Below are positions 7,108 through 14,990 of a DNA stretch of 29,024 nt, in pieces. A program made the position numbers and the translations under genes. The DNA comes from a virus. The stretch is taken from positions 1-29,024 of the IMG/VR virus record IMGVR_UViG_3300021389_000109; one strand, given 5' to 3'. The notes under the pieces are model-generated. The model was given only the letters and a program-made list of their open reading frames with translations, was not told the origin of the DNA and did not search any database. Each line of letters begins with the position of its first letter. Position 1 is the stretch's first letter.

Positions 7108-8064
7108 TTAGCCTTTAATTATTCCTTGTATCTCATAAACGCAACTTAACATTGTGATTACAGGATCTATTACATGAACTCTCTGCTGTTGGTGTTTAGC
7201 TACAGAAATAATGATCTGTGGGATATGCTTGACCGATTGCAATTGTTCTTGTTGTATATATTCTACAAATTCTTCGCCTAGCGTCTGTAAAATATCATCT
7301 ACTCTATTAGCATAATTACTAACTAAAAGCTGATAGTTTTTAGCTGGATCTGTTTCGTTAAAGATTAATTCAAATACGTCTTTATAGACTGAGTTAAATC
7401 TCTTTACATCTCCAACTGTAATATTGTTTGTACCTTGAGTTTTAAACCCCTGTAGCTTGTTAAGCGTCGATCTAAGATCTGGGAAGTTACGCCTAACAAA
7501 TTCTACTAGAGCCTCTTTTTCAATTGTCATTTCTTCCTGTTTGCAAATATCATATACTCTACGAATATACTTCTTTGTCAACTCAGTTTCCTCTTCTTTA
7601 TCAAAGTCAAAGTTAATGACTTCAAATCTTGAGAGTATTGGGTCTGGCAACTTGTTAATATAATTACATGTTGCGATAAATCTTGAATTGGATGCAAATT
7701 GCTCCATTGTAGCACGAAGTGCTTTAAAAAACTGATCCGATACACCGTCAACCTCATCGAGGATAACTACTTTAAACATTCCAGGCTCATCCATAATTGA
7801 GACTGTAGAACAGAAATCTGTAATTCTAGTTCTAATTACATCTACAGATGTGTCTGTGGACGCGTTGATGTACAAATAAGGCAGTTCAAATTGATTTACA
7901 ATGGCTTTTGCAGTAGAGGTCTTACCTGTCCCAGGTGAGCCCGCAAACAGCATATTCTGGACTAGTCCATCTTTAAACTTATTCATAACTGCATCAGGCA
8001 GTATAAGTTCTTGTAAATTTTTTGGCCGATACTTTTCGGTAAAGAGTTGGTTTATTGATTGCAT
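7108..8064 (-). CDS. 44: Sliding-clamp loader ATPase subunit, T4 gp44-like
   Basis: This AAA+ ATPase opens and loads the replication clamp. From the N-terminus it shows the RFC-type start FTEKYRPKNLQEL, Walker A GSPGTGKT (42-49), Walker B ILDEVDG (101-107), sensor-1 TCN (132-134) and an arginine-finger motif SRF (145-147) in the place of the SRC motif. The length of 318 aa matches T4 gp44 (319 aa). It is the first gene of the left replication cluster and is divergent from the plus-strand 164-aa gene. A TATAAT box lies 17 bases upstream. The clamp gp45 itself is not in this window. Confidence 0.96.
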   Translation of the reverse strand: MQSINQLFTEKYRPKNLQELILPDAVMNKFKDGLVQNMLFAGSPGTGKTSTAKAIVNQFELPYLYINASTDTSVDVIRTRITDFCSTVSIMDEPGMFKVVILDEVDGVSDQFFKALRATMEQFASNSRFIATCNYINKLPDPILSRFEVINFDFDKEEETELTKKYIRRVYDICKQEEMTIEKEALVEFVRRNFPDLRSTLNKLQGFKTQGTNNITVGDVKRFNSVYKDVFELIFNETDPAKNYQLLVSNYANRVDDILQTLGEEFVEYIQQEQLQSVKHIPQIIISVAKHQQQRVHVIDPVITMLSCVYEIQGIIKG

Positions 8065-8126: not shown

Positions 8127-8621
8127 ATGAGTATACGAATTGAGAAGACAGGAGGCCCTTGGCCAGCGAACCGATATGGTATTGTTCTAAAGTACTTACC
8201 GAGATTCTTAAGAAAGTTTCTAATAACACATAGGAATCTTGCTAAATGGTCGGATGATGACCAGTTTATGGCATGTGTCTTGAAAATACAAAGACCAAAC
8301 TCTAGAACTAATACCAAGATCTATTGGGATATAGTAAATGATAGAGCTATGGATGAAAAAGGACTAGAGCTTTCATATAATACTATTGATTGGTATTGTG
8401 CCATCTCGCTTAAACCTATTAGGGCTAAGTTTATGAATTTCGATTTAAAGAATTTCATACACCCTGAATATTATGATGTATTAGAAGCGCCGATGGTGGA
8501 TAGTCGTATACTTAAATCCTCAATTGACTTTCGTAAAAAATGTAAAAAACTCCTGCTCGAACAACGAGAGGAGTTTCTATTACTTGCTAAAAAGAACGCT
8601 AAGTCTAATCTATCTCTTTAA
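8127..8621 (+). CDS. Unrecognised 164-aa protein, only plus-strand gene
   Basis: This is the single credible plus-strand gene. It fills the gap between the divergent gp44 and the convergent coiled-coil gene, overlapping the end of the latter by 12 bases. The protein starts MSIRIEKTGGPWPANRYGIV, is rich in Lys, Arg, Trp and Tyr, and ends in a basic helical segment (about 130-164, with FRKKCKKLLLEQREEF). It has no signal peptide or membrane segment, and I do not recognise the family. A 64-aa frame opposite it is a shadow: this one is longer and accounts for the whole gap. Its location beside gp44 and separate orientation fit an early gene, perhaps a host-takeover or regulatory factor, which is an inference from context only. 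Confidence 0.8.
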   Translation: MSIRIEKTGGPWPANRYGIVLKYLPRFLRKFLITHRNLAKWSDDDQFMACVLKIQRPNSRTNTKIYWDIVNDRAMDEKGLELSYNTIDWYCAISLKPIRAKFMNFDLKNFIHPEYYDVLEAPMVDSRILKSSIDFRKKCKKLLLEQREEFLLLAKKNAKSNLSL

Positions 8622-10334
8622 AATTAATCTTATTTTATCAGCAACCGAGAAGGACTCATGTAATTTCTCTTCTTTCTGATTTAACCCTAGGTCTTCTTTT
8701 AAAGATTCCCAAGTTAATTCTTTGGATTCGTATTTAGCTTTTTGTTTTTTCTTAATTCCATCTATTTCCTCTTTCTTCTTAGCTCTTTCTAAATCTATTT
8801 CTGCATCTTTTACTGATGTTTCATCTTTAGGAATCACTTCGTCTTTTAATTCTTTTTCTTTATCTTTAAGCTCTTTCTTTTTTTGCGTTAGATCTTCAAT
8901 CTCGTCCTTTGCGACTTGAATTGCAGCATCCTGTGGAGAAGATTCGGCCTCTTCGACTTCCGGATCTGCTTTTGATAAAGTTTCTTTTGCTTTTGCAATA
9001 CCAGTATCAACTTTTTTAATCTCTTTAGGTATCTTTTTTAATTTCTTTTGGTCGCTTGTTAATGTTTTTTCTGCAGCAGCTAATGCTTTTTCAGCATTTT
9101 CAATTTCATCAGACTTAGGAGCTTCTTCTTTTTCAACATCTTCTTTTCCGTCATCTTTCATTAAAGCGTTACCAGTATCTTCCGTATCATCTTTAGTACT
9201 ACCTACTTTAGAATCTTTCTTATCGTAGTCCTCACCCTTTAATGCAGCTCTTTCGGCCTTTAACTCTTCTAGGTAATCTTCTAAGTAGTAGATACCTTCT
9301 TCTGTTTTAGCTTCTTGTTGTTTAAGTGCAGCTAGATCTGCCTCAGCTGACTTTTTCTTTGATGGATCTGTTTCGTCTACTAATTCTTTTTTCTTATCTG
9401 CAATTTGTTTCTTTAATGGTTCAAGATCTTCATCCTTTTCTCTATCGAGTTCGTTTTGAATTTTGCTGATTTGCTCTTCTAGCTTAGGATCGACATCTTT
9501 TGAAAGTTCTTTAATAGCAGCATCTGTTTCTTTAGATTTAGCGCCTATTTTTTTAAGCTCGTCAGCAGCCTCTTTTGCAGCATCGGATTTACCCTTTTCT
9601 TTTGCAATTCTACCCTTTTCTTTAAGACCTTCTAATTTTACTTCGTTAGTGATCTTTCTTTTAGTGCTTTTGTATAGATCTCCCTCAGTGCCTCCTGGCA
9701 TGTTTTCCTCATACTTAGACATTTTCTCACCGGCTTCTTCTAAAGCCTGTACTGCTTGTTCTTTTGCCTGTTCAAACTTCTCACTAACATCTGCCTTCTT
9801 TTCTTTAAGAGCTTTAATTGTAGCGATTGCTTTTTGTTGGATTGCGTCCTTCTTAGGACCCTTGGCCTCATCTCTAGCACGCTTCATTTGATCGATCTTA
9901 GCTTCGATCTTTTTTATTGCATCATATTGTTTTGCTGAAATAATATCTGCATTAGCTTCCATTGACAATTTCTTATAGTCACCTTTTAGCAATGCCATGC
10001 CTTTTACAAAATTAGCCTGCTTCTTAACAAAACCTATGATATTTGCTAGGCTTTCGTTTATTGGTCTATTTTCTTGAAAAAAAAAATCGTTATCTACGCT
10101 TTCGCTAATTCTTTTAGATAAAGTATCTAGATTAGTTAATATAGCATCAACATCTTTAATAATATCAGCTCTAACTTCTTCGCCTGTCTTAATAGAGGTT
10201 TGATTAGCTAAAACTGTATTCATATTTGCCTTCGCTACTGGAGCTATATTTTGCTCCGGATTGGAAATACTTCCCGTTTCGGCTTCGAAAGCCTCTTGTG
10301 TTAAAAGAGGTTTTATTGGTCTAAGTTTTGCCAT
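8610..10334 (-). CDS. Large charged coiled-coil protein (574 aa), probable late protein
   Basis: The protein is dominated by Lys, Glu, Asp and Ala with long predicted coiled coils from about residue 110 to 545. A short ordered N-terminus (AKLRPIKPLLTQEAFEAETG) precedes it. The C-terminal segment (LTWESLKEDLGLNQKEEKLHESFSVADKIRLI) looks like a small helical domain. I recognise no enzyme motif. It has its own GATATATAG late-promoter motif, which overlaps the stop of the glycosyltransferase gene. That points to late expression and possibly a structural, internal-head or core role. It ends convergent with the plus-strand gene with a 12-base overlap. Confidence 0.88.
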   Translation of the reverse strand: MAKLRPIKPLLTQEAFEAETGSISNPEQNIAPVAKANMNTVLANQTSIKTGEEVRADIIKDVDAILTNLDTLSKRISESVDNDFFFQENRPINESLANIIGFVKKQANFVKGMALLKGDYKKLSMEANADIISAKQYDAIKKIEAKIDQMKRARDEAKGPKKDAIQQKAIATIKALKEKKADVSEKFEQAKEQAVQALEEAGEKMSKYEENMPGGTEGDLYKSTKRKITNEVKLEGLKEKGRIAKEKGKSDAAKEAADELKKIGAKSKETDAAIKELSKDVDPKLEEQISKIQNELDREKDEDLEPLKKQIADKKKELVDETDPSKKKSAEADLAALKQQEAKTEEGIYYLEDYLEELKAERAALKGEDYDKKDSKVGSTKDDTEDTGNALMKDDGKEDVEKEEAPKSDEIENAEKALAAAEKTLTSDQKKLKKIPKEIKKVDTGIAKAKETLSKADPEVEEAESSPQDAAIQVAKDEIEDLTQKKKELKDKEKELKDEVIPKDETSVKDAEIDLERAKKKEEIDGIKKKQKAKYESKELTWESLKEDLGLNQKEEKLHESFSVADKIRLILKR

Positions 10335-10365
10335 CTTATATTTTTATTTTAAAATAAGTCTTTAA

Positions 10366-10374
10366 CTATATATC
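10366..10374 (-). promoter_or_regulatory. Putative late promoter of the coiled-coil gene
   Basis: The minus strand reads AAGATATATAG 32-40 bases before the ATG at 10334. It overlaps the last codons and TAG stop of the glycosyltransferase gene (Asp-Ile-stop). Confidence 0.65.
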
Positions 10375-11040
10375 TTCTTCTGTATCTGTTTCTTCATCAT
10401 CGACCCATTCTGGCCTCATGGACTGCCATGAGAGTGCTCTATCATCAGTTTCATGTAGGATTATAGTTTCTGAAGTAATAAATTCATTATAGAAATATTC
10501 TTTCTTAAATAAAGTTATATCCCAATCTATTATTCTGAGCAGTTCTCGCGATATATGCAGACCACTTAGGGGGTGGTTATACATACCATCATGCCACCTA
10601 CTAATAATATGTTTTAAATGATGGTTATTAGGAGTGGCCCCTAACACTGTAACATCTGCCATAAGACCATATTCTGTATCATTTTTTAACCCGGCAAATA
10701 TTTTACAATCTTTTGATAATTTAGATATGACTTCATTAAAAGACCTAATAGGTTTAGCATCCGTATCAACATAAATACCTCCCATTTTATCTAAGATTAA
10801 TAGCCTGACTCTATCTGCAACAAAAGCAGGTTGCATTAAATATTCACTACCAATCTTAGTCTTTACTCCTTTTAAGTACTCATCTTCAGCAAATATACCA
10901 TTAAATACCATATCATTATCCCACAGGATATGCTGCCAATCCGGATGCATGTCCTTCATCATCTGGATAAAATATTGATATTTTTTTGGAATAGGATCTG
11001 GTCCAATCCATATTTGATGAATAATCTTAGGTATACTCAT
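10366..11040 (-). CDS. Glycosyltransferase, GT32 / DXD-sugar-binding type
   Basis: This 224-aa enzyme has the hallmarks of the glycosyltransferase family with a DXD sugar-binding region (OCH1-like, GT32): an N-terminal IPKIIHQIWIGPDPIP (3-18), LWDN (39-42), FVADRVRLLIL (73-83) and GGIYVDTDAKP (87-97). The Asp-Thr-Asp at 92-94 should bind metal and the nucleotide sugar. It would transfer a sugar from a nucleotide donor; the acceptor is unknown. It lies between the capsid terminator and a late coiled-coil gene, with a late-like promoter of its own. The acceptor could therefore be a virion protein, DNA or a host surface glycan. The C-terminus is acidic (DDEETDTEEDI). Confidence 0.88.
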   Translation of the reverse strand: MSIPKIIHQIWIGPDPIPKKYQYFIQMMKDMHPDWQHILWDNDMVFNGIFAEDEYLKGVKTKIGSEYLMQPAFVADRVRLLILDKMGGIYVDTDAKPIRSFNEVISKLSKDCKIFAGLKNDTEYGLMADVTVLGATPNNHHLKHIISRWHDGMYNHPLSGLHISRELLRIIDWDITLFKKEYFYNEFITSETIILHETDDRALSWQSMRPEWVDDEETDTEEDI

Positions 11041-11060
11041 TGTTAGAATATGGTTTACCT

Positions 11061-11072
11061 ATTATATATAGA
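11061..11072 (-). promoter_or_regulatory. Variant late-promoter-like element upstream of the glycosyltransferase
   Basis: The minus strand reads TCTATATATAATAGG, about 21 bases before the ATG at 11040. It keeps the TATATAAT part of the late motif but has C in place of the leading G. Because a terminator precedes it, this gene needs a promoter here. Confidence 0.5.
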
Positions 11073-11092
11073 ACTTTTCTAAAGTTTAAAGC

Positions 11093-11121
11093 AAAAAAAA
11101 GGCCCTCAAAAGAGGGCCTTT
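11093..11121 (-). terminator. Intrinsic terminator after the major capsid gene
   Basis: On the minus strand AAAGGCCCTC and GAGGGCCTTT form a perfect 10-bp stem with a TTTT loop, followed by an unbroken T-run (A-run at 11093-11100 on the plus strand). It lies 26 bases after the capsid stop and should end that abundant transcript. Confidence 0.93.
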
Positions 11122-11147: not shown

Positions 11148-12533
11148 TTATAGTAATGTAACATCTTGAGCTAAAGTAATAGCGAAAGACTCATATTGAG
11201 TTTCTGGGTGGAATCCAGCTTCAACCAATGCGTATCTAGATTTTACAGCTACTTTAGGAGCCATAGTTCCTTCAACGATTGCTTGTACTGATTCAGCCAT
11301 TAAGTAAGGCATGAATACTAGTCCAGGTCCGTTACCGTCACCTTTTCTACCAACTAATACATTTAGATCACCGAAACCAATTGATGGGTCAGTGTAAATG
11401 TTAATACCAGCAACAGAACCTAAAGGATAGATTGAACCTGCAACTTGGTTAACAGTATTAGCCATTGGATATGCAACGAAACCAGCAACTGATTGTAATG
11501 CAGATGCAACCAAACCACCGACAACTGCGAAGTTACCAGCACCTCTTCTACCTCTTTGTGCGATTAAATTCGCAGAAGCAAGGATTGAAGTTAAGATTGA
11601 TCTATGTTGGTCAGCTTTAGTTTCACCACCTGCTAATGCACCAAATGATAAGTTACCTACACCGTCATTTCCAGCAGCTAAGGCTCTCATTTTACCTAAG
11701 ATGTGTTCGTTGATTGACTGAGTTAATTCATTAGTTAAAACTGCTTCTACTTGAGCAACAGCGTCAACACCGAATTGTTTAAGGTCTTGAACTTGCTCTC
11801 TAGTTACAGCAGCAGCTACTTGGAAAGTCTCTGCAGAAACTGATTTAGAGAATAAGCTTAAGCCCATTACTTTATCATTAGCTTGTTCACCGAAACCTCT
11901 TGACATTGGTTCGTAAGCAGCTTTGCCACCTTCAACACCAGCACCAGAGAATCCTGGAATGTGATCTTCTAATGCAGCAACTAGTTCAGCACCAGCATAT
12001 CTATCAGCGATAGAATTTTCACCAGCGTTTGCGTCTAATGCATCATTGATTTTGATAATTGGTTTACCATCGATTCTTGAAGTACCAGCATCAGTATCAT
12101 TACCAGCAGCGGCTTGGCCGACGTTAGCTTTGATGTAAGTTGGTGTTTCAGAACCTCCTACTTTACCACCTTCGTATACGAAGTCTAGGTAAGAAAGTAA
12201 TCCCATTGGTCCAGCCATAGGTACAACAGGTACTAGGTCTAAACCGATTGTTTGTGCAGCAACTTGCATCGCTAAAGGTAATAAAGTTGGAGCTTTGTCA
12301 CCTGAACCGTCTGCAGCGCCTGCAGTTGGGAACTTAGTTGCTCCCATACCGAAGATGTTACCACCTGCACCACCATTACCTAGTGTCATTACAGATGAAT
12401 CTTCATAAAGCTTGTGATTGTGGCAGTATTCTGACATCCAAGCTAGCTTTGAGCTTTCAGTTATACCAGTTGCTTCTTCGATAATCGGAGACCAAGTGTT
12501 TCTAACTTCAGCTTCATTAATTAAATTTGCCAT
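11148..12533 (-). CDS. 23: Major capsid protein, T4 gp23-like
   Basis: This 461-aa protein forms the hexameric shell. Its N-terminus (LINEAEVRNTWSPIIEEATG) matches the start of T4-type gp23 prosegments. After it comes a Gly/Ala-rich stretch, then APTLLPLAMQVAAQTIGLDL and PMAGPMGLLSYLDFVY (about 104-119), which parallel the gp23 region around PMNSPTGQVFALRAVY. It is shorter than T4 gp23 (521 aa). A possible maturation site for the prohead protease is after Glu44 in KLYE|DSS, fitting the (L/I)xE rule; this is a guess. It follows the protease-scaffold gene and precedes a strong terminator. Its leader is about 100 bases, much longer than those of other late genes here. Confidence 0.95.
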   Translation of the reverse strand: MANLINEAEVRNTWSPIIEEATGITESSKLAWMSEYCHNHKLYEDSSVMTLGNGGAGGNIFGMGATKFPTAGAADGSGDKAPTLLPLAMQVAAQTIGLDLVPVVPMAGPMGLLSYLDFVYEGGKVGGSETPTYIKANVGQAAAGNDTDAGTSRIDGKPIIKINDALDANAGENSIADRYAGAELVAALEDHIPGFSGAGVEGGKAAYEPMSRGFGEQANDKVMGLSLFSKSVSAETFQVAAAVTREQVQDLKQFGVDAVAQVEAVLTNELTQSINEHILGKMRALAAGNDGVGNLSFGALAGGETKADQHRSILTSILASANLIAQRGRRGAGNFAVVGGLVASALQSVAGFVAYPMANTVNQVAGSIYPLGSVAGINIYTDPSIGFGDLNVLVGRKGDGNGPGLVFMPYLMAESVQAIVEGTMAPKVAVKSRYALVEAGFHPETQYESFAITLAQDVTLL

Positions 12534-12630
12534 TTTGTTAAATTGTTTTTTTAATGGTTTTGTTTAAGCGTTCATTTCTGAACTCGACTTGCTTGAGTGT
12601 TCTGCTTCTGTCACTCTATATCGTCGATTA
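12534..12630 (-). promoter_or_regulatory. Long structured leader of the capsid mRNA
   Basis: About 97 bases separate the late promoter motif from the capsid ATG. The leader can form GAGTG/CACTC or, alternatively, ACTC/GAGT hairpins around GAACACTCAAGCAAGTCGAG, and it contains a tiny ATG-AAC-GCT-TAA frame at 12564-12575. No Shine-Dalgarno is seen; the last 30 bases are A-rich. Confidence 0.4.
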
Positions 12631-12631
12631 A

Positions 12632-12640
12632 TTATATATC
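12632..12640 (-). promoter_or_regulatory. Putative late promoter of the major capsid gene
   Basis: The minus strand reads AAAGATATATAATTAATC, starting immediately after the stop of the protease-scaffold gene. It would start a separate capsid mRNA. Confidence 0.72.
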
Positions 12641-12641
12641 T

Positions 12642-14378
12642 TTACTTTTTAAATCTTTTCTTTAAACTTTCAGCGTAGCTAGACACATCATATAGTGGCT
12701 CTTCTTTCTTATCAGCAACTGCTGATTCGTTAACTGCCGCTAACTTTTCTAGGTCAACTTTTACCTCTCTTAGATCTCTAGTTTCCCAGAAGTTTCTAAC
12801 TTGATACTCAGTATTTAGAGTATGGTAGTTCGCTTGAGCTTTGATTTGATTTTGTTTTCCTTCAGTTAGAGATTCAAACTTCTCTTTATATTCTGTAGGC
12901 ATTGCAGCCATAAAGAATGGTTCAGAATTTCTAGCTTCAACAACAGCATCTGCGTTTTCAATGATTGCACTGATTTGTGCTTCATTCATAAATGCTCTTT
13001 TTGTAACTCTATTTCTAACTTCAGTTTTTGCATCTTCATTTAGTGCATGGTAAGACTCTTGTATAGAACTTGATACTACATTTAAGAATGCAGGATTTTC
13101 ATTTTCTTTTACTTGAGCAGCTTCTACTAATGCATCTAATTTAGATGAAATTTCTTTTTTGTAAGTATCTAAAGCAGATTCTTCAACCTCTTCAGTTTCT
13201 TCAACCTCTTCAGTTTCTTCAACCTCTTCAGTTTCTTCAACCTCTTCAGTTTCTTCAACCTCTTCAGTTTCTTCAACCTCTTCAGTTTCTTCTACTTCAT
13301 CTTCTTCATGTGCTCCTTCTTCAGTAGCTTCAACTTCTTCTTCAACCTCTTCAGATTCTTCAGTAGTTTCTTCTTCAGCAACTTCTTCAGCACCTTCACC
13401 AGCTTCATCTTCTTCAGCAACTTCTTCAGTCTCTTCTACCTCTTCAGTTTCAGCAACTTCTTCAGTCTCTTCTACTTCTTCAGTTTCTTCAACCTCTTCA
13501 GTTTCTTCAACTTCTTCTTCGTTAGTAGTCTCTTCTGATTCTTCAGTAGCTTCAGTCTCTTCTACTTCTTCAGTTTCAGCAACTTCTTCAGTTTCTTCAA
13601 CTTCTTCAGTTTCTTCAACCTCTTCAGTTTCTTCAACCTCTTCAGTTTCTTCAACCTCTTCAGTTTCTTCAACTTCTTCAGTTTCTTCAACTTCTTCAGT
13701 TTCTTCAACTTCTTCTTCGTTAGTAGTCTCTTCTGATTCTTCAGTAGCTTCAGTTTCTTCAACCTCTTCTGTTTCCTCTACTTCCTCTTCGTTAGTAGTT
13801 TCTTCTTCAGTTACTTCTGGAGTTTCTTCTTCAGTTACTTCTGGAGTTTCTTCAGTTTCTTCAACCTCTTCAGTTTCTTCAACTTCTTCTTCAGTTACTA
13901 AGTTTTCGTTGATTGAAGTAGCAATATATTCTGCATATTCAGATACAGACTGTAAGTTTTCCTTTAAATAGTCAACATAAGATAAAAGGCTTTCTGCAGT
14001 TTCTGTACTAGAGTTGTTACTTTCAGCAACTTGATCAGCAAAATCTTTCACTTTACTAATAGATTCAGCTAAATGCTCAGAGTATTGAATACCTTGATCT
14101 AATTTTTCTGCAATATTTTCTGTATATGAAATGCCTTGATCAGCTTTTTCAGCTACATGTTCTGTATATTGGATTGATTCATCTAATTTGCCAGCTAAAT
14201 ACTCAACATATTCTGAGAGAGTATTGACGCTTTCAACGATGTGATCGTTATGAGACTTTACGTTCTCTAACGTGTCATCTTCACTGTTTGCTCCGATTGA
14301 CTCTTTTAGTGACTTGATTTCACCAGCTAAGTACTCAGAATACTTATGGAAATCTTCAGCCTTTACAAATTCTGCCAT
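12642..14378 (-). CDS. Possible nested scaffold protein from internal start
   Basis: In frame within the fused gene, ATG at 14378 (codon 205, MAEFVKAEDFHKYSEYLAGE) is preceded by AATAATAATAAAAAC. This A-rich leader is like those before true starts in this genome, and the ATGGC context matches several real genes. The product would be a 578-aa scaffold without the protease, analogous to the in-frame nested scaffold genes of lambda-type phages (lambda C/Nu3). This is inferred from position and start context; nothing in the sequence proves its use. Confidence 0.45.
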   Translation of the reverse strand: MAEFVKAEDFHKYSEYLAGEIKSLKESIGANSEDDTLENVKSHNDHIVESVNTLSEYVEYLAGKLDESIQYTEHVAEKADQGISYTENIAEKLDQGIQYSEHLAESISKVKDFADQVAESNNSSTETAESLLSYVDYLKENLQSVSEYAEYIATSINENLVTEEEVEETEEVEETEETPEVTEEETPEVTEEETTNEEEVEETEEVEETEATEESEETTNEEEVEETEEVEETEEVEETEEVEETEEVEETEEVEETEEVEETEEVAETEEVEETEATEESEETTNEEEVEETEEVEETEEVEETEEVAETEEVEETEEVAEEDEAGEGAEEVAEEETTEESEEVEEEVEATEEGAHEEDEVEETEEVEETEEVEETEEVEETEEVEETEEVEETEEVEESALDTYKKEISSKLDALVEAAQVKENENPAFLNVVSSSIQESYHALNEDAKTEVRNRVTKRAFMNEAQISAIIENADAVVEARNSEPFFMAAMPTEYKEKFESLTEGKQNQIKAQANYHTLNTEYQVRNFWETRDLREVKVDLEKLAAVNESAVADKKEEPLYDVSSYAESLKKRFKK

Positions 14379-14990
14379 GTTTTTATTATTATTTGTTTCT
14401 ATATTGGTTTCTGTAATTTCTTGTGCTACTTCTTGTTCGCCGTTCATTTCATAGATCCATAGACCTGAATTGTCGTCAAAACCGTAGGATTCATTTACTC
14501 TCTTTAACTCTGCATTAGCAAATCCAGGATCTGCAACTAAGTCATAAGTAAATAATTGTTTGATTTTAACTTTACCGTTTGATTCAACGGCACCAGCTGC
14601 TCTAGAAGAGATTTGTAAAGGTACACCAGCATCTACAAGCGCTTTAGCCTGTCTACCAGCGTCAGTATCTAGAAGTCTGATCTTACCCATTACGTGTTTG
14701 TTATCTTTGTCGTAGTAAAGTTCTTCAATTATGTGAGACACATTCTTAAGAGATACATCGAACTGTTGTGGGTGATCTAACTCACCTAATAGTTTAGAAG
14801 ATTTAATCTTATCTTGTAATTGCTGAATTTGAGGTACATACTCGTCTTCAGTGTAGATGCGATTATTTTTATTTTTGGAGTCAATTTCTCCAAAGATACC
14901 TTCTAGAATGTACTCTTTGTTCTCACCAGCAGCTACTTTTAACTGTGATGAAGACATTTCTACGATCAATAAGTCGTTTTTGTTTGCCAT
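12642..14990 (-). CDS. Fused prohead protease (gp21-like) and scaffold (gp22-like)
   Basis: One 782-aa frame appears to join two T4 prohead functions. Residues 1-185 are the gp21-type serine protease: YILEGIFGEID, NNRIYTEDEY, GELDHP (69-74, catalytic His73) and LQISSRAAG (125-133, Ser128/129), ending near VNESYGFDDNSGLWIY as gp21 proteins do. Residues 205-360 are helical with 14-residue repeats. Residues 365-610 are an extreme Glu-rich VEETEE repeat. Residues 611-782 are helical and end YDVSSYAESLKKRF, like SVYAKVASRF at the end of T4 gp22. T4 encodes gp21 (212 aa) and gp22 (269 aa) separately. An internal ATG at codon 205 could give a free scaffold. It lies in the T4 order between portal and capsid genes. 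Confidence 0.88.
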   Translation of the reverse strand: MANKNDLLIVEMSSSQLKVAAGENKEYILEGIFGEIDSKNKNNRIYTEDEYVPQIQQLQDKIKSSKLLGELDHPQQFDVSLKNVSHIIEELYYDKDNKHVMGKIRLLDTDAGRQAKALVDAGVPLQISSRAAGAVESNGKVKIKQLFTYDLVADPGFANAELKRVNESYGFDDNSGLWIYEMNGEQEVAQEITETNIETNNNKNMAEFVKAEDFHKYSEYLAGEIKSLKESIGANSEDDTLENVKSHNDHIVESVNTLSEYVEYLAGKLDESIQYTEHVAEKADQGISYTENIAEKLDQGIQYSEHLAESISKVKDFADQVAESNNSSTETAESLLSYVDYLKENLQSVSEYAEYIATSINENLVTEEEVEETEEVEETEETPEVTEEETPEVTEEETTNEEEVEETEEVEETEATEESEETTNEEEVEETEEVEETEEVEETEEVEETEEVEETEEVEETEEVEETEEVAETEEVEETEATEESEETTNEEEVEETEEVEETEEVEETEEVAETEEVEETEEVAEEDEAGEGAEEVAEEETTEESEEVEEEVEATEEGAHEEDEVEETEEVEETEEVEETEEVEETEEVEETEEVEETEEVEESALDTYKKEISSKLDALVEAAQVKENENPAFLNVVSSSIQESYHALNEDAKTEVRNRVTKRAFMNEAQISAIIENADAVVEARNSEPFFMAAMPTEYKEKFESLTEGKQNQIKAQANYHTLNTEYQVRNFWETRDLREVKVDLEKLAAVNESAVADKKEEPLYDVSSYAESLKKRFKK
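13161..13895 (-). repeat. 18-bp coding minisatellite (VEETEE repeat) in the scaffold
   Basis: The plus strand shows tandem copies of TCTTCAACCTCTTCAGTT, with CAACCT/CAACTT/TACTTC variants, encoding the hexapeptide VEETEE. Perfect runs occur around 13180-13290 and 13575-13700. They are interrupted by variants such as VAETEE and by a duplicated ATEESEETTNEEE block near residues 414-427 and 486-499. The array covers about 245 residues and is almost entirely Glu, Thr and Val. Confidence 0.95.
13911..14243 (-). repeat. 14-residue repeats in the scaffold coiled coil
   Basis: Residues 250-360 of the fused protein contain near-repeats such as IQYTEHVAEKADQG, ISYTENIAEKLDQG and IQYSEHLAESISKV, plus more degenerate LSEYVEYLAGKLDES and VSEYAEYIATSINEN. 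The spacing of 14 equals two heptads, as expected for a regular coiled coil built by internal duplication. Confidence 0.8.

Follow-up and report, generated by a model that had tools for sequence, protein, structure and literature searches.

Phage-encoded glycosyltransferases (GTs) are already known; what is new in the locus described here is another phage group and a recurrent position of the gene. The closest described systems are those of mycobacteriophages. Virion glycosylation in the mycobacteriophages Che8, Corndog, and Myrna was described by Freeman et al. 2023 (as cited in excerpts of PMC12619734, PMC12363180, and PMC11256854), and the first two of these papers cite sugar on both the capsid and the tail-tube proteins. 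The first-pass annotation of our locus had called capsid glycosylation by a phage enzyme unusual, a judgment that these reports do not bear out. The mycobacteriophage systems resemble the present one in that the GTs are phage-encoded; the acceptors reported for them, capsid and tail-tube subunits, are the proteins whose genes precede the GT genes in separate lineages here. They belong to other phages and hosts, and sugar is reported on their virion proteins, whereas the activity of the enzyme described here is predicted from sequence; the GT genes of mycobacteriophage Maravista, as described, lie near the 3′ end of the genome. Nine records matched our protein at E 0.01, none of them named as a mycobacteriophage.

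Two further comparisons can be made. The Moraphages, as portrayed in excerpts of PMC12619734, are large aquatic phages near the Lak phages, with predicted Bacteroidota hosts and with four putative glycosyltransferase orthogroups among their core; as here, the acceptors are unproven. The alpha- and beta-glucosyltransferases of T4 share with our enzyme the phage-encoded transfer of sugar in T4-like phages; unlike them, our protein has no match to the T4 glucosyltransferase Pfam family at E 0.1. Among the titles and opening lines of abstracts listed from the open-licence literature on glycosyltransferases and virion glycosylation, we found no description of a GT32 gene placed behind a capsid gene.

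The window, by which we mean the whole stretch of DNA analyzed, is a linear virus record of 29,024 bases. A megablast search of its first 25,000 bases against phages returned zero matches. Its minus strand carries a T4-like head module in the order head closure, end protector, portal, protease, capsid, coiled-coil protein, and gp44-like clamp loader. Compared with annotated phages, the capsid protein is closest to that of an unannotated 462-kb phage (49% identity), followed by the Lak phages (∼37%). The relatives of this protein suggest a Bacteroidota host. The GT gene had been placed directly behind the capsid gene, after a terminator, and this arrangement stands: the capsid gene (11148-12533) adjoins the GT gene, with a stem at 11098-11121 between them. 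The features of the locus, in window coordinates, are as follows.

7108..8064, minus strand: gp44-like clamp loader, closing the capsid-to-gp44 interval at its far side (phrog_168, E 7e-74)
8127..8621, plus strand: 164-aa gene, a marker of the capsid-to-gp44 interval (comparison with the loci of relatives)
8610..10334, minus strand: charged coiled-coil protein, 574 aa, of variable length in relatives (no Pfam family at E 0.1)
10362..10377, minus strand: late promoter serving the coiled-coil gene; it covers the final 12 bases of the GT gene (profile score 13.8)
10366..11040, minus strand: GT32-type glycosyltransferase gene, 224 aa, DTD at residues 92-94 (Pfam; model pLDDT 86.6)
11060..11090, minus strand: 31-base conserved block upstream of the GT gene, its putative own promoter, TATATATAATA (identical in the window and in L002/L003)
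11098..11121, minus strand: intrinsic terminator between the capsid and GT genes (10-pair stem and T-run; 0 of 100 shuffles as good)
11148..12533, minus strand: major capsid protein, gp23-like, 461 aa (PF07068 Gp23, E 3.3e-46)
12584..12627, minus strand: RNA hairpin in the capsid mRNA leader (folding energy against shuffles; conservation among leaders)
12628..12643, minus strand: late promoter of the capsid gene (profile score 18.3)

Several neighbors of the GT gene have features of their own. The prohead protease gene (12642-14990, minus strand) carries a long acidic repeat (EEVEETEEV) as a fusion, which may serve as a built-in scaffold. The protein encoded at 8610-10334 is a coiled coil rich in Lys, Glu, and Ala that ranges from 287 to 856 aa among relatives, where its C terminus often carries an L-x-E site; in the window this is KLHE before the last 15 residues. 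Such sites resemble those cut by T4 gp21, and the protein is a candidate internal head or scaffold protein. In loci that carry the GT, kin of the 164-aa gene (8127-8621, plus strand) are neighbors of the gp44 gene; most other loci have an ORF of about that size at this place. The 462-kb relative has an OrfB/IS605-type transposase-like gene (L082:15732-16601) at a distance of 2 kb behind its capsid gene.

The leader of the capsid mRNA contains the hairpin at 12584-12627 (minus strand), with a folding energy of −15.8 against −6.9 in shuffled sequences (z = −3.8). Its loop, GAAGCAGAA, follows the pattern GAAG(C/A)A(G/A)AA in 52 of 53 distinct leaders, the exception being L015. Thirty-seven leaders have TCGAC/GTCGA as the outer stem and 14 have TCGAT/ATCGA, a compensatory change (C-G to U-A); the inner stem, which was chosen for pairing, has 13 sequences among the 52 of 53 distinct leaders. 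All 91 matches to the pattern in the loci examined fall just before the capsid gene (75 by script, 16 by comparison of positions), and no Rfam family matches the hairpin at E 1. It is possibly a translational or stability control of capsid synthesis.

The GT gene is an ATG-start ORF of 224 codons on the minus strand, and its reading as a GT32-type enzyme with a DTD motif is confirmed. The protein matches PF04488 (Gly_transf_sug) with E 2e-13 and 51.3 bits, above the cut-off of 23, and does so again in the genome search; at E 0.1 the only Pfam families recorded are PF04488, PF12919, and PF05704. Matches below cut-off are to TcdA/TcdB (23.4 against 23.6) and, weakly, to Caps_synth. Five residues, W11, R77, D92, D94, and H196, are invariant in an alignment of 36 phage sequences, some of them as little as 29% identical to the window protein; these are active-site residues with catalytic roles in the family. 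An AlphaFold2 model (mean pLDDT 86.6, pTM 0.85) has as its nearest solved folds YeGT (Z 18.4, rmsd 2.6 over 180 residues), PaToxG (17.0), SetA (16.5), and the fungal Och1 (16.0). These four act on proteins or glycans; they are GT-A enzymes, whereas the T4 glucosyltransferases are GT-B. By its Pfam score, its DxD motif and conserved active-site residues, and its GT-A fold, the window protein is of the GT32 type. It differs from its solved GT32 (PF04488) neighbors, which it resembles in Pfam match, DxD, and fold (Z 16 to 18), in being a bare catalytic domain of 224 aa. A shared fold does not reveal the acceptor.

The transcription signals give a different picture from the one first drawn. The terminator (10 pairs followed by a T-run) was equaled in 0 of 100 shuffles. 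A terminator before the GT gene is not a general rule: we find one at only nine of 62 distinct GT starts. The first-pass annotation had also reported a late-like variant promoter. We scored this region on a late-promoter profile (consensus AAAGATATATAAAAAA) built from relatives, in which 189 of the 207 distinct regions preceding four structural genes hold sites of this kind; the profile leans to GATATATA, because its sites were first found with a GATATATA seed. The GT gene scores −0.5, against 16.4-18.3 at the four modeled genes of the window. The coiled-coil gene scores 13.8 and four other window genes (20998, 18591, 2531, and 1819) 11.6 to 18.9; the genes for DnaB, UvsX, the clamp loader, and the exonuclease stay at or below 1.4. 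The register at the GT gene that looks most like a late promoter by eye scores −8. At the GT gene a T precedes ATATATAA, as in only two of 237 such cores in relatives, both at portal genes (the cores lie upstream of capsid, portal, protease, DS116, and coiled-coil genes, near-copies included). We therefore rejected a late promoter as evidence on the timing of the GT gene. A low score is nevertheless compatible with late transcription, since the operon-internal genes for head closure (−0.5) and end protector (−7.8) also score low.

The 31-base block upstream of the GT gene is identical in the window and in its nearest relative, L002/L003. Because the GT proteins themselves are only 64% identical, the block is probably functional, yet it is probably not a typical late promoter. 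It contains an AACTTT-AGA-AAAGTT inverted repeat. A sigma70-like match within it (10 of 12) is no evidence of a promoter, since the scan found fewer sites in total (22) than in shuffled sequences (33.6). Read-through into the GT gene from the capsid promoter is possible.

How often the position behind the capsid gene is occupied can be judged from 80 relatives selected by capsid protein (MCP), out of 589 matched, among which the gene order around the capsid gene is nearly constant. Seven of these records have a GT32 gene: six in the capsid-to-gp44 interval (L002, L003, L024, L041, L073, and L074) and one, L019, outside it. Only in L002 and L003 does the gene lie between the capsid and coiled-coil genes, as in the window; in the other four it comes after the coiled-coil gene, the L024 copy being on the opposite strand. 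When records are collapsed at 97% MCP identity, GT32 is present in five of 49 clusters, four of the five in the interval. The interval makes up 5.1% of the representative bases (binomial for four of five, 3e-5, a value that overstates independence because the clusters are still related).

Among 53 complete intervals (near-copies included), nine hold ORFs of at least 50 aa beyond the coiled-coil and 164-aa genes. Seven of these nine contain a GT: GT32 in six records, of which L074 has a TOD1-like GT as well, and GT2 in L079. L045 and L063 have non-GT insertions. The interval does not draw every GT family, because GT2 matches over cut-off occupy six places in 44 records and only one of these (L079) is in the interval, with five outside; we therefore discarded the idea of a magnet for all GTs. 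The capsid of L041, which has the GT, is 98.2 and 97.1% identical to the capsids of L043 and L049, which lack it. Since near-identical capsids occur with and without the GT and most relatives are without it, the capsid does not need the enzyme, and a conserved partnership of the two is rejected. The GT is an accessory gene, and the interval that holds it is variable.

A profile search with the GT found 290 related viral contigs (near-copies included); a scan of viral contigs with the single GT sequence had found zero relatives. We typed the gene context of 80 of the 290, using one representative for each locus group and extending by BLAST clusters. Eighteen loci fall within the interval or next to its 164-aa and gp44 genes (with the capsid gene visible in 15), 13 are in baseplate modules, five directly behind the tail-tube gene, eight behind a long tail fibre, and nine near a DNA ligase gene. 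Seven form a single group, one member of which (L150) has terminase and portal behind the GT; the context of the remaining 20 is unassigned or mixed. Other GT relatives stand among non-structural neighbors: a halogenase, an alcohol dehydrogenase, or further GTs.

The tree separates 54 of the 59 phage rows from 23 bacterial rows (branch 99/98); the other five, L159-L163, fall among bacteria. With this separation, and with the best 80 of 127 bacterial matches at ≤41% identity over ∼100 residues, a recent host origin of the GT is rejected. The interval GTs fall into two lineages: the window GT and that of L084 group with the baseplate pair L086/L087, and the other nine rows form a clade of their own. 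The branches are long, which lowers confidence in the exact joins. A single clade of interval GTs is rejected (p-AU = 4.6e-5); the same test for the tail-tube group gives only P = 0.034. Contexts were labeled before the first tree, and the one-clade test was run after it.

The best-supported reading, which we hold tentatively, is that the acceptor is a structural protein of the virion. It is favored because the GT clade recurs in structural modules, because two separate lineages have come to lie in the capsid-to-gp44 interval, and because five of six interval-GT contigs longer than 80 kb, one of them 205 kb, have no match to the thymidylate synthase family (PF00303), although the contigs may be incomplete. 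The first-pass annotation had argued for a virion or lysis-phase acceptor from late timing; the virion reading survives on these three grounds, and the promoter argument does not. Under this reading, a small soluble GT32-type enzyme would transfer sugar from a nucleotide donor to a phage structural protein during the building of the particle. The likeliest acceptors would be the capsid protein itself or some other head protein that is abundant and encoded by a neighboring gene, and the sugar might alter the particle surface in recognition, stability, or adsorption. Several results count against it. The profile gives no late promoter, most relatives lack the GT, five of the six GT2 places lie outside the interval, GT relatives also occur among non-structural genes, L019 has its GT32 outside the interval, and one contig (G004) combines an interval GT with two PF00303 genes. 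Among 18 aligned capsids, no insert or Ser/Thr enrichment is tied to the GT, and the Ser+Thr content of the coiled-coil protein is not raised where the GT is present (31 proteins).

It is somewhat unlikely, though the foremost alternative, that the enzyme instead modifies a host surface glycan (O-antigen or capsule) during infection and so hides the receptor from competitors or keeps progeny off debris. For GTs in a tail-fibre hypervariable region, the authors of a pelagimyophage survey prefer a host-surface reading (excerpts of PMC7029224). Some GT relatives have sugar-gene neighbors (a galactosyl transferase-like gene for L155, a UDP-glucose dehydrogenase gene for L110), one GT lineage lies behind the tail fibre, where a host-surface function would also fit, and the weak Caps_synth match points the same way. 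A host glycan, however, does not readily explain why separate lineages lie behind capsid and tail-tube genes, and no membrane segment is seen in the GT sequence by eye.

A selfish or nearly neutral accessory gene, in an interval that tolerates insertions and with an acceptor unrelated to its neighbors, is in our view quite improbable. The interval does change fast, as the variable length of the coiled-coil gene indicates; it has received non-GT insertions in two records, and the terminators before nine GT starts are as expected of independent insertions. Against neutrality, a GT is present in seven of the nine occupied complete intervals, and the active-site residues are kept throughout the 36 sequences, down to the most divergent.

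The least probable explanation, which we consider improbable by a similar measure, is that the enzyme acts like those of T4 and adds sugar to a hydroxymethylated base in the phage DNA. DNA glycosylation is known for T4-like phages (excerpts of PMC12838424), and PF00303, which covers thymidylate synthase and its hydroxymethylase kin, is matched in six of 35 records (G004, G009, G011, G042, G043, and G045). In G004 two such genes, one divergent, accompany a GT32 in the interval; in G009 two accompany a GT2 in the interval; and of the five GT-clade contigs whose GT lies outside the interval, three have a match (G042, G043, and G045, with none in G041 and G044). A match may equally be an ordinary thymidylate synthase. 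PF00303 is absent from the window, which is only a 29-kb fragment of its genome, and is not matched in G001, G002, G003, G005, G006 (205 kb), G013, or G018, all with GT32 in the interval. A search of nine large relatives for the T4 glucosyltransferase family gave one sub-threshold match, with stops inside, and a Tet_JBP search gave no matches, controls included, and so carries no information. Gaps in the contigs, and other routes to modified bases, limit the weight of these absences. The record of L079 (G009) has at 128326-133769 a cluster of thymidylate synthase, a divergent relative, and a second GT2, separate from the GT2 behind the capsid gene. This is likely a DNA-modification cluster, and its GT2 is the likelier DNA enzyme of the two.

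Returning to a structural protein as acceptor, a wider proposal can be framed, which we consider unlikely. The GT32 genes of T4-like phages may have moved repeatedly to positions directly behind the gene of their acceptor (capsid/head core, tail tube, fibre, or baseplate); the neighbor would then name the glycosylated protein, and the sugar coat would be swappable via one small gene. If the acceptor is DNA or a host glycan, some other account is required of why the GT genes lie behind those for capsid and tail tube. If it is a virion protein, glycosylated particles would be known from T4-like phages as well as from mycobacteriophages, in the former through a different enzyme clade. Genome position would then predict the acceptor, a testable rule for many metagenomic phages (the 290 contigs, near-copies included), and models of phage surface chemistry, decay, and recognition would change.
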